A DNA stretch of 64,000 nt. It comes from Agarivorans sp. Toyoura001 (GTDB lineage Bacteria; Pseudomonadota; Gammaproteobacteria; Enterobacterales; Celerinatantimonadaceae). A model generated the notes under the pieces. It was given only the letters and a program-made list of their open reading frames with translations, was not told the origin of the DNA and ran no database searches. Each line of letters opens with the position of its first letter. Position 1 is the first letter of the stretch. This document shows, one piece after another, positions 6,669 through 42,409 of this stretch. The position numbers and the translations under genes are program-made. The stretch is taken from positions 496,001 to 560,000 of the forward strand of contig NZ_BJEQ01000001.1 of NCBI RefSeq assembly GCF_005405585.1. The letters run 5' to 3'.

Positions 6669-6698
6669 GCCCAAACTACATGGTTTGGGCTTTTTTTT
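6669..6698 (+). terminator. Intrinsic terminator after the DUF523/DUF1722 gene
   Basis: Stem GCCCAAAC (6669-6676) / GTTTGGGC (6683-6690) with a six-base loop, followed by eight T. A textbook rho-independent terminator. Confidence 0.93.
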
Positions 6699-39649: not shown

Positions 39650-42409
39650 ATGTTGGCAAAACCATTACTTATTAGCCTCTGCTTAGTCAGTACCTTGGCA
39701 CATGCAGGCTTGGATTCACGCTCACCAATCTTTACCTTTGGCGGGGAAAATTTTTATGACACCATTGAGCATGAGATTGCATATTTTGGCGATGATCCCT
39801 ATGTCTTAGTCTTAGACAAAAACAGGAATACCTATGTGGGGGGAGAGACCGGGGGTGAAAATATCAACTTTTCAGCCAATGGCTCCAATCCCAATATGGT
39901 GCTGACCAATACCACCCTTCATCCTTACTATAAAGCGTATGAATCTGATGGGTTCTTGACAAAATTTAATGCCGGTGGTGTTGCTCAGTGGACATTTTTA
40001 GTCGAGGGGGAAGAAGACGTAGCAGTGCGTGCGGCGGCGACTGACAGAGACAATAATGTCTATATCATTGCTGAAGTAAGAAAAGATATTGCATTTAGTC
40101 GCTTAAATCAAGACGGCACAAAAACCCTACTTCACGAACAAACCTATGCTTTAAGCAGACAAGCTTCAGCGGTTATAAAATTATCGCCTTTAGGTAATAT
40201 TATATGGGTAAAAAATATATGGGCAAAATTACAAAACGACTCAAATAACGATCTTGATAGCGAAATTGATCCCAATACAGTAACTGTTGATGATAGCGGC
40301 CTTTATATTGCGGGGAATTTTGAAGGTGAAGTCTATTTTAATCCTGATGATAAATCTGTTGTCGGCAAAAGAGAGGATGGTGATACTTCTGATGAAGCCT
40401 TTATCTTAAAGATGAACTTTGATGGTCAATATCTTTGGAGCCGATATATTGGCTCAGATCAAACCGATACCATTATTGACATAGAAGCTGATAATGGGTT
40501 CATTTACAGTGTCAGTAAACACAAATCAACGGAAGACGGCACGAGTTTTGATGGTGCATACCAAACAATCTCCCATGCCTCAGAGCCTTCTTATGAAGTC
40601 ACAGGTTCAAAAGAAGATGAGGATTTCTGCGCTATTCAAAAATTTGATGCCGCTACTGGTGAAACTATTTGGACACAAACAGTTGAAACCGGGCCATCTG
40701 TCGAGCAACTAGGTGGTGATTGCGCACCAAGTATGATTGCTGTGGGGGATTCGCTGGTCTCCATTAATGGTAGCTATGACGGTATTCTGGACTTTGATCC
40801 TTCTGAGGCCAAGGTCGCAACCAGTGTGAGCAACGCTAACCATAACTCGTTCATTCTTGCCATTAATAAAAACAATGGACTCAAAGAATGGTATGCAACC
40901 TTCAATCACCCTGCTGCTGATGATGGCTCGACCAATTGGTCTCAGGTTTATTCACATGATTTAGCCGCCTTTGGTGATTCTATCTATTTTGGTTTTTCTC
41001 TTCGCAACCGAGGTGGCGAGACGGATCGATTACAAGTAACAGGCGATGCAAAAAATGTCCAAACATGGGCCAATGAGATCGTAACCACTTATAGCCCCAG
41101 CCCTACGACATTAATTCAAGACATTGCCATCGTTAAACTCGACAAAGAAGGCGATGCCAAATGGATACAACAATGGAACGGTGATCTTAGCTATAAAATC
41201 GTTCGTGCCTTCGCAACATCCACAACGGGTGAAGTGATTATGAGTGGTCAGTTTACCGGTTCGATGGATATTGACCCAACACCAAGAACAAACAATGTAG
41301 AGACCATTGATTATAAATTGCACAACAGTACAAACGGTAGAGATGCTTTTGTGGTTCGACTCAATGCTGACGGTAGCTATGATGAATCTGTGCCTGTTAA
41401 TAATGCACCAGTCATTGTTCATGCCGAAGAAACACTGCCACTAAACAGCCCTGATGTCACGCTTGATCTATTAGCACACGCTTCGGACGTTGACGGTGAT
41501 GAAATCTTCATTGACACGGCAGTTGCGGAGCATGGCAGTATTTCCATTGTTGATGGTGTTGTTACCTACACTCCTTTAGCCGACTTTGAAGGTGAAGATA
41601 TCATTACTTATACCGTTTATGACTCAAACGGAGAGAGTACTACAGGCACCCTTAAACTAATTATTAGCTCAAATGTTAGCAGCGAAACTATAATTTCAGG
41701 CGGCTCTACGGGGTTATTTTCCTTAACTCTACTTGGACTTTGTGGTCTCTTTCGTAATAAAAAAAAGGTGTTGCCTAAAGCTATCTTGTCACTTTTCCTT
41801 GCTGTATCTTTGCCCTCTCATGCAAAAAATGGTTTGGACAACACGACGGATCATGGCTGGTATGCCAATGCAAACCTTGGGTTAGCAACAACCCATGACC
41901 TAGATAATGTGGGCACAGCAATATCAAACAGCTATGGATCTGCTTCCAATATTGATATTGATGACAATGGTGTCAGTGGTTCTCTTTATCTTGGCTACCA
42001 AGTGACTAATCATTTTGCAGTTGAGTTTGGCTATTGGAACCTTGGCTCTCGTGAAGTCTCTTTTGAGCAAAATAGCAGTGATAGCGATAGCTATTTAGAT
42101 CAAGCACAATTTGGTTATGTTAGCTCGGGACATGGTGCTCATCTTAACCTCATTGGTAAAACTGCGTTGACTGATAAGTGGCAAGTAGCAGCAAAATTAG
42201 GCTACTTACAATGGCAAGCAGATTACGATACTAAAGTTGCAGGTGAGAAGCTAAAGCGCACTCAAACTCAGGGAGGGGATCTCACGCTAGGCTTGGGACT
42301 CGGTTATCAGGTGTTATCCAATGTTGAACTGCATCTAGACTATAACTACGTTTCACTTAAAGGTAGTGAGATCACTGAAGTGGCATTCGGAACTCGATAT
42401 CACTTCTAG
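39650..42409 (+). CDS. Secreted repeat protein with GlyGly-CTERM-like tail fused to an outer-membrane beta-barrel
   Basis: Residues 1-19 are a signal peptide. Residues about 210-580 contain several SBBP-like propeller repeats (for example SYDGILDFDPSEAKV and QFTGSMDIDPTPR). Residues about 587-680 are a cadherin-like Ig domain (DVDGDEIFIDTA, GVVTYTPLADFEGEDIITYTV, given in parts). Residues 684-706 mimic a GlyGly-CTERM sorting tail: GG, a hydrophobic helix (LFSLTLLGLCGLF), then RNKKK. Right after it V707-A725 is a complete second signal peptide (LSLFLAVSLPSHA), followed by a porin/OmpA-like barrel (740-919) ending in HF. The junction is a run of eight A (41759-41766); nine A would stop the first protein at 41776-41778. 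This may be two genes joined by slippage or error. Confidence 0.75.
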   Translation: MLAKPLLISLCLVSTLAHAGLDSRSPIFTFGGENFYDTIEHEIAYFGDDPYVLVLDKNRNTYVGGETGGENINFSANGSNPNMVLTNTTLHPYYKAYESDGFLTKFNAGGVAQWTFLVEGEEDVAVRAAATDRDNNVYIIAEVRKDIAFSRLNQDGTKTLLHEQTYALSRQASAVIKLSPLGNIIWVKNIWAKLQNDSNNDLDSEIDPNTVTVDDSGLYIAGNFEGEVYFNPDDKSVVGKREDGDTSDEAFILKMNFDGQYLWSRYIGSDQTDTIIDIEADNGFIYSVSKHKSTEDGTSFDGAYQTISHASEPSYEVTGSKEDEDFCAIQKFDAATGETIWTQTVETGPSVEQLGGDCAPSMIAVGDSLVSINGSYDGILDFDPSEAKVATSVSNANHNSFILAINKNNGLKEWYATFNHPAADDGSTNWSQVYSHDLAAFGDSIYFGFSLRNRGGETDRLQVTGDAKNVQTWANEIVTTYSPSPTTLIQDIAIVKLDKEGDAKWIQQWNGDLSYKIVRAFATSTTGEVIMSGQFTGSMDIDPTPRTNNVETIDYKLHNSTNGRDAFVVRLNADGSYDESVPVNNAPVIVHAEETLPLNSPDVTLDLLAHASDVDGDEIFIDTAVAEHGSISIVDGVVTYTPLADFEGEDIITYTVYDSNGESTTGTLKLIISSNVSSETIISGGSTGLFSLTLLGLCGLFRNKKKVLPKAILSLFLAVSLPSHAKNGLDNTTDHGWYANANLGLATTHDLDNVGTAISNSYGSASNIDIDDNGVSGSLYLGYQVTNHFAVEFGYWNLGSREVSFEQNSSDSDSYLDQAQFGYVSSGHGAHLNLIGKTALTDKWQVAAKLGYLQWQADYDTKVAGEKLKRTQTQGGDLTLGLGLGYQVLSNVELHLDYNYVSLKGSEITEVAFGTRYHF

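Follow-up and report, generated by a model that had tools for sequence, protein, structure and literature searches.

A GlyGly-CTERM-like tail followed in frame by a second signal peptide and an OmpA-like barrel in Agarivorans sp. Toyoura001: a probable polyprotein precursor

The window analyzed here, a stretch of 64,000 nucleotides from Agarivorans sp. Toyoura001 (contig NZ_BJEQ01000001.1, positions 496,001 to 560,000), contains on its forward strand a single frame, 39650-42409, that is open over 919 codons. The initial annotation had described this frame as one ORF for a GlyGly-CTERM-like protein, a further complete signal peptide and an outer-membrane barrel, joined at a run of eight A, and the Pfam and TIGR03501 matches agree with this description. 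The parts are as follows, in window coordinates:

39650-42409, + strand: whole fused ORF, stop included, 919 aa
39650-39706, + strand: first signal peptide, residues 1-19, cleavage site placed by eye
39707-41398, + strand: passenger, with weak propeller-like matches only (SBBP, DUF5122 and PQQ_2, all below cut-off)
41399-41656, + strand: Ig-like domain (Big_9 / Cadherin_5), residues 584-669 (Big_9 57.4 bits, cut-off 23.6)
41696-41767, + strand: GlyGly-CTERM tail, with GG at residues 684-685, a hydrophobic helix and RNKKK at 702-706 (TIGR03501)
41759-41766, + strand: A8 run in the Lys codons of the basic cluster, from the sequence
41761-41767, + strand: heptamer A AAA AAG, in phase for a -1 shift, from the sequence
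41768-41824, + strand: second signal peptide, residues 707-725, ending in SHA (by eye; near-invariant Ala column in the alignment)
41776-41778, + strand: TAA in the -1 frame, the stop of the first protein after a -1 slip, from the sequence
41825-42406, + strand: OmpA-like barrel, residues 726-919 (PF01389, PF13505, predicted model and PDB match)

TIGR03501 (GlyGly_CTERM) matches residues 683-703 of the window protein with 20.8 bits (cut-off 15.5), and the C-terminal part is covered by PF01389 (residues 734-909, 67.4 bits) and PF13505 (residues 712-919, 46.5 bits). The frame ends in RYHF, and the barrel thus closes on an aromatic residue. The predicted structure has a mean pLDDT of 70.8, with most blocks of the barrel above 80 and the two helices at the joint of low confidence (mostly pLDDT <50). 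The best PDB fold match of the barrel is OmpA (9fzc, E 6.9e-11), and the barrel is very likely of the OmpA type. Although the barrel has many relatives, a search for the passenger in the 393 other genomes of the order sample gave no match at E ≤ 1e-5; comparison with the PDB gave one weak lectin match (E 0.0011), which was disregarded. When compared by eye, the two signal peptides are both 19 residues long, share 7 residues at equal positions and both end in HA.

The genome encodes further tails of this kind: TIGR03501 matches six proteins at E ≤ 1, the window protein included, and five of the six score above the cut-off. As a short model it also gives false matches, and one of 14 control genomes has a match over the cut-off. 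From the start of the tail to the stop there are 22-30 residues in the five other tails of the genome, whereas 237 are found in the window protein, the tail of which therefore lies inside the protein and not at the extreme C-terminus that defines GlyGly-CTERM.

The one-frame layout recurs in other bacteria. A first search, which covered the genome of the window and 98 others, revealed tail and barrel in one frame without a stop in five of the 98 (G016, 2548 codons; G040, 3435; G065, 4669; G079, 2737; G085, 2091), and the longest homopolymers at these five joints are T5 and G5. Wider searches, with barrel and joint as the query, covered the order (394 genomes), the Shewanella family (146) and the class (369). 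The query alignment consisted of six fused and two separate barrels, tail included, and the best-scoring loci were fetched, so that the fused share is biased upward. With this query, which favors the fused form, and with a limited number of first-look candidates scored per genome, such that absences are not proof, the order sample yielded 45 barrel matches of at least 115 bits in 38 genomes, and 33 of the 45 are fused, in 30 genomes of ten families. Fused loci also make up 8 of the 29 other loci fetched from the class sample (L097-L100 and L102-L105), all from other orders. The complete chromosome 1 of Shewanella sp. ANA-3 carries a fused joint, in a frame of 3556 codons for which Pfam lists Ig-like domains and, near the end, OmpA_membrane.

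A reduced set of 125 distinct barrels (at least 80 bits), taken from the loci fetched (the best 30 per search plus chosen stretches), was sorted by judgement into fused, pair, alone and direct forms. Ninety-one are fused and carry the complete joint (tail, helix, basic residues, second signal peptide), a share that is biased toward the fused form and in which Shewanellaceae (146 genomes) are over-represented; 18 lie behind a separate GlyGly-like gene, the tail of which was judged by eye and not scored with TIGR03501; 12 are without such a neighbor or have an unrelated upstream part; three are joined to an Ig-like domain without helices, and one has a single helix. L108 and L111 were classed as alone despite long upstream frames, and L155 was classed as a pair, though a stricter look showed no tail near its start. 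The finding that, according to the initial annotation, would reduce the locus to an ordinary gene pair plus an error, namely orthologs encoded by two distinct genes that lack a homopolymer, holds for some relatives, while others are fused. A loose rule for the joint (GG, helix, basic residues, helix, AxA) is passed by 87 of the 91 fused members, compared with 87 of 1820 joints after shuffling; L161, L188, L152 and L105, the four members that do not pass, look similar by eye and are still counted as misses.

Other ways of joining the two parts exist within the barrel family. In L101, L106 and L110, barrels of the same family are joined directly to an Ig-like passenger, with neither GlyGly tail nor second signal peptide; the existence of this third layout suggests that passenger and barrel act at the same place. 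In the fused L153 (G109:C95), the barrel is immediately preceded by GG, one helix and AQA, and here the tail and the second signal peptide seem to be merged into one segment. Given the helix-free and single-helix joins, two cuts are not universal in the barrel family. Some genomes harbor two or three fused-gene or gene-pair copies, namely G421:C1 (326132, 1525070 and 3647085), G096:C1 (164558 and 172948) and G414:C1 (2883980 and 3008766). Choice-of-anchor U domains, which are typical of surface-anchored proteins, score over the cut-off in fused Shewanella and Rheinheimera proteins (L132, residues 3028-3137; L136, residues 1786-1894).

Both sorting signals are conserved at the fused joints. Across an alignment of 25 fused members with <80% identity, G8 is invariant, and conservation reaches at least 90% at G7, at the Arg after the helix (R25) and at A48, the Ala predicted to occupy position -1 of the cleavage site in the second signal peptide. 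At E ≤ 0.01, Pfam OMP_b-brl matches all 25 members and OmpA_membrane 21 of them; TIGR03501 matches 13 of the 25 at E ≤ 0.1, hence many of the tails are GlyGly-like rather than scored members. In Shewanella (17 sequences compared in 31 pairs, with 29 pairs for the tail median), the pooled dN/dS amounts to 0.168 for tail plus second signal peptide, 0.068 for the barrel and 0.058 for the last 100 codons of the passenger, and the joint is thus under purifying selection there, looser than that on the folded parts.

The machinery for GlyGly-CTERM processing accompanies the barrel. The search for a rhombosortase gene that the initial annotation had recommended was successful in the genome of the window (G000:C22, 129 bits, cut-off 84). 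Rhombosortase is over the cut-off in all eight genomes checked, i.e., this one and seven others, vs none of 14 controls, and GspD in all eight vs two of the 14. Of the 38 genomes of the order sample in which a barrel reaches at least 115 bits, whether fused, paired or alone, 36 have a rhombosortase at E ≤ 1e-20, compared with 197 of the 356 others (one-sided Fisher 2.8e-7, uncorrected for relatedness). The two with a barrel but no rhombosortase at this threshold are G109 and G166, and the latter is 80% complete.

Taken together, it appears reasonably probable that the gene encodes a polyprotein precursor, from which rhombosortase and signal peptidase would release a surface protein and its outer-membrane partner; for the window locus itself, the eight A are taken as real here. 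The first signal peptide would lead the passenger through Sec, and the GG-helix-basic tail would then halt in the inner membrane, its basic residues facing the cytoplasm as they would in other GlyGly-CTERM proteins, a topology that follows from the order of the parts in the sequence. The same basic residues would make up the n-region of the second signal peptide, or contribute to it, whereby export of the barrel would restart. Rhombosortase is predicted to cleave at GG and to free and modify the passenger, cleavage of GlyGly-CTERM substrates being one that exposes the second Gly for modification, while the cut after the second AxA would be made by signal peptidase I and would free the barrel. 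The passenger could then be lipid-modified and carried to the surface by the type II system, while the barrel would reach the outer membrane in a number equal to that of the passenger and would probably act as its partner or anchor. Its recurrence in other bacteria makes it probable that the layout reflects a real precursor and not a slip in sequencing, and since it is both recurrent and constrained in other genomes, an in-frame joint needs neither error nor slippage.

At the window itself, the fused state could have a more local origin. The locus might be an ordinary overlapping gene pair, in which one A was lost through a mistake in sequencing or assembly, or through a strain-specific one-base deletion, with the fused family elsewhere being real; we consider this rather unlikely, yet it is the part of the indel-or-error proposal in the initial annotation that retains some weight, since the nearest barrels are mostly separate genes. 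As a general account of the fusion the proposal is not needed, because the constrained fused layout recurs elsewhere, nearly always without a comparable A-run. One extra A would end the first protein at 41776-41778, as noted in the initial annotation: the -1 frame reads ...KKGVA and then a stop, in which case the end of the tail would closely resemble that of the five others in the genome, and the second signal peptide, read from its own GTG at 41768, is complete. However, all 18 pairs start with ATG (the first ATG was chosen where present) and 12 of them have a Shine-Dalgarno-like site ahead of it, whereas the joint in the window has neither, being without an in-frame ATG for a separate barrel gene; a separate barrel would have to start at GTG 41768 or at a TTG, without a spaced Shine-Dalgarno-like site. 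In 15 of the 18 pairs, the stop of the upstream gene falls within a range from 27 bases before to 7 bases after the chosen ATG, with a four-base overlap in six; in the L114 and L118 pairs it lies 58 bases after and 82 bases before the ATG, respectively. An independent start of the barrel was also considered as a general explanation and was rejected, as the in-frame ATG, GTG or TTG codons at 45 fused joints share no common position. A Shine-Dalgarno-like site precedes some in-frame start codon at 11 of these 45 joints (some rows being anchored on a later GG), where extra internal starts are possible.

The tree of the barrels, a quick one built without bootstrap from the 104 of 125 rows left after a 90% identity cut, bears on the same question. 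The fused label changes 13 times on it (shuffled mean 28.3, with 0 of 500 shuffles as low), at least four of these changes being forced by starred branches, and seven changes are counted when fused is compared with pair alone. The label is thus clustered but has changed several times. The barrel of the window groups with L051 (fused), L003 (alone) and L065, L186 and L189 (pairs), with an SH-aLRT of 94 on an unstarred branch; as most of these neighbors are separate genes, the fusion at the window locus may be an artefact or of recent date, and this grouping is the main evidence against an old fusion in the window. No barrel match was found in any of the six other genomes of the genus. The viability of the layout, as shown by the fused relatives, and the behavior of other A8 runs speak against a missing A. 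Of the first 30 A8 runs on contig 1, nine, including that of the window, lie at least 20 codons inside open frames of at least 200 codons, a weak sign that such runs generally do not break frames.

It is improbable that the protein remains uncut, either with the two helices forming an inner-membrane hairpin or with the barrel serving as a covalent C-terminal anchor of the passenger. Passenger-barrel fusions without helices do occur in this family, as in L101, L106 and L110 described above, but a hairpin would need neither the GG tail nor the AxA-like site that nearly all fused members keep under the loose rule, and an outer-membrane barrel would not be expected to stay joined to two helices in the inner membrane.

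The window contains two A/T runs of at least eight, the A8 at the joint and that at 6691-6698, and the 4.65 Mb genome holds 208 exact A8 runs on both strands, so the A8 by itself is unremarkable. Genes with a programmed -1 frameshift of the dnaX type have a slippery heptamer in phase, a stimulatory downstream structure and a heptamer that is common to relatives. The switch envisaged in the initial annotation, in which RNA polymerase or the ribosome would slip on A8 or A AAA AAG to give a short GlyGly-CTERM protein besides the fusion, is very unlikely: the heptamer is in phase for a -1 shift and a stop follows soon in that frame, but the RNA downstream of A8 is not unusually structured over 83 nt (z -0.27, 73 of 200 shuffles being as stable), and the heptamer is not common to relatives, a run of 8 occurring at 2 of 45 fused joints, that of the window and that of L056, where it sits in an ordinary in-frame Arg-Lys-Lys-Arg stretch. 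The eight A are probably real, and not regulatory.

If the window gene does encode a precursor that is cut twice, several consequences follow. Both the definition of GlyGly-CTERM and the searches for it presuppose a C-terminal signal, and surface proteins with a functional internal tail would have been missed or misnamed. Rhombosortase would act on precursors that run on into another exported protein, and the fused barrels would name a candidate outer-membrane partner for GlyGly-CTERM surface proteins. The layout is present in Shewanella with finished genomes and is therefore directly testable. More tentatively, the family might represent a wide bacterial polyprotein strategy, whereby a single chain yields a surface adhesin and its outer-membrane partner in a 1:1 ratio, with rhombosortase and signal peptidase I, two different proteases, cleaving at back-to-back signals; pair and polyprotein might interconvert by small indels at the joint, the A-run in the Lys codons could even switch between these two states here, and the whole might form a TraAB-like contact system of gammaproteobacteria.

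Among known systems, the fbcH precursor of cytochrome b/c1 in Bradyrhizobium reportedly encodes two envelope proteins in one ORF that are split at an internal signal peptide. The likeness to the window gene lies in the single ORF for two envelope proteins, whereas fbcH is said to concern inner-membrane respiratory subunits and no sorting tag. The founding description of GlyGly-CTERM, in the text available, places the tail at the extreme C-terminus and reports that 219 non-redundant proteins have no further transmembrane segment between signal peptide and tail (PMC3237569). Word counts in that text gave no words beginning with internal, fusion, fused, barrel, OmpA or polyprotein (PMC3237569). 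With GlyGly-CTERM proteins such as VesB, as far as the accessible parts of these sources describe them, the window protein shares the signal peptide (by eye here), GG, helix and basic cluster, as well as rhombosortase and T2SS in the genome, but its tail is internal and is followed by a second signal peptide and a barrel (PMC3237569, PMC6219818). The window family can hence be regarded as a GlyGly-CTERM variant, which departs from one defining feature, the C-terminal position.

The TraA/TraB system of Myxococcus, according to the portion of the report available, pairs a sorting-tag protein with an OmpA-domain partner, encoded by ORFs that overlap by four bases and yield like mutant phenotypes (PMC3325183). 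The same overlap is seen in 6 of the 18 pairs here, and PF00691 follows the barrel, as in TraB, in all four members that were scanned on account of their long C-terminal extension (three fused, one paired); in contrast, TraA/TraB are two genes with a different tag (PMC3325183). The PA14 domain of TraA is unlisted in the Pfam scans of the window protein and of the ANA-3 fused frame. The closest known case in the open-licence literature, as far as its text was available, is MXAN_5598 of Myxococcus xanthus, in which an adhesin-like N-terminal part, an internal MYXO-CTERM and an outer-membrane barrel with OmpA domains are encoded by one gene; its authors suggested a fusion of two genes, proposed that the N-terminal part is processed and anchored, and likened the arrangement to the overlapping traAB (PMC11980579). 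The order of adhesin-like part, internal tag and barrel in a single gene is thus common to both, but MXAN_5598 is described as one atypical case with MYXO-CTERM and myxosortase, and the text available makes no mention of a second signal peptide (PMC11980579). The window family combines GlyGly-CTERM and rhombosortase with such a peptide and occurs in many genomes.
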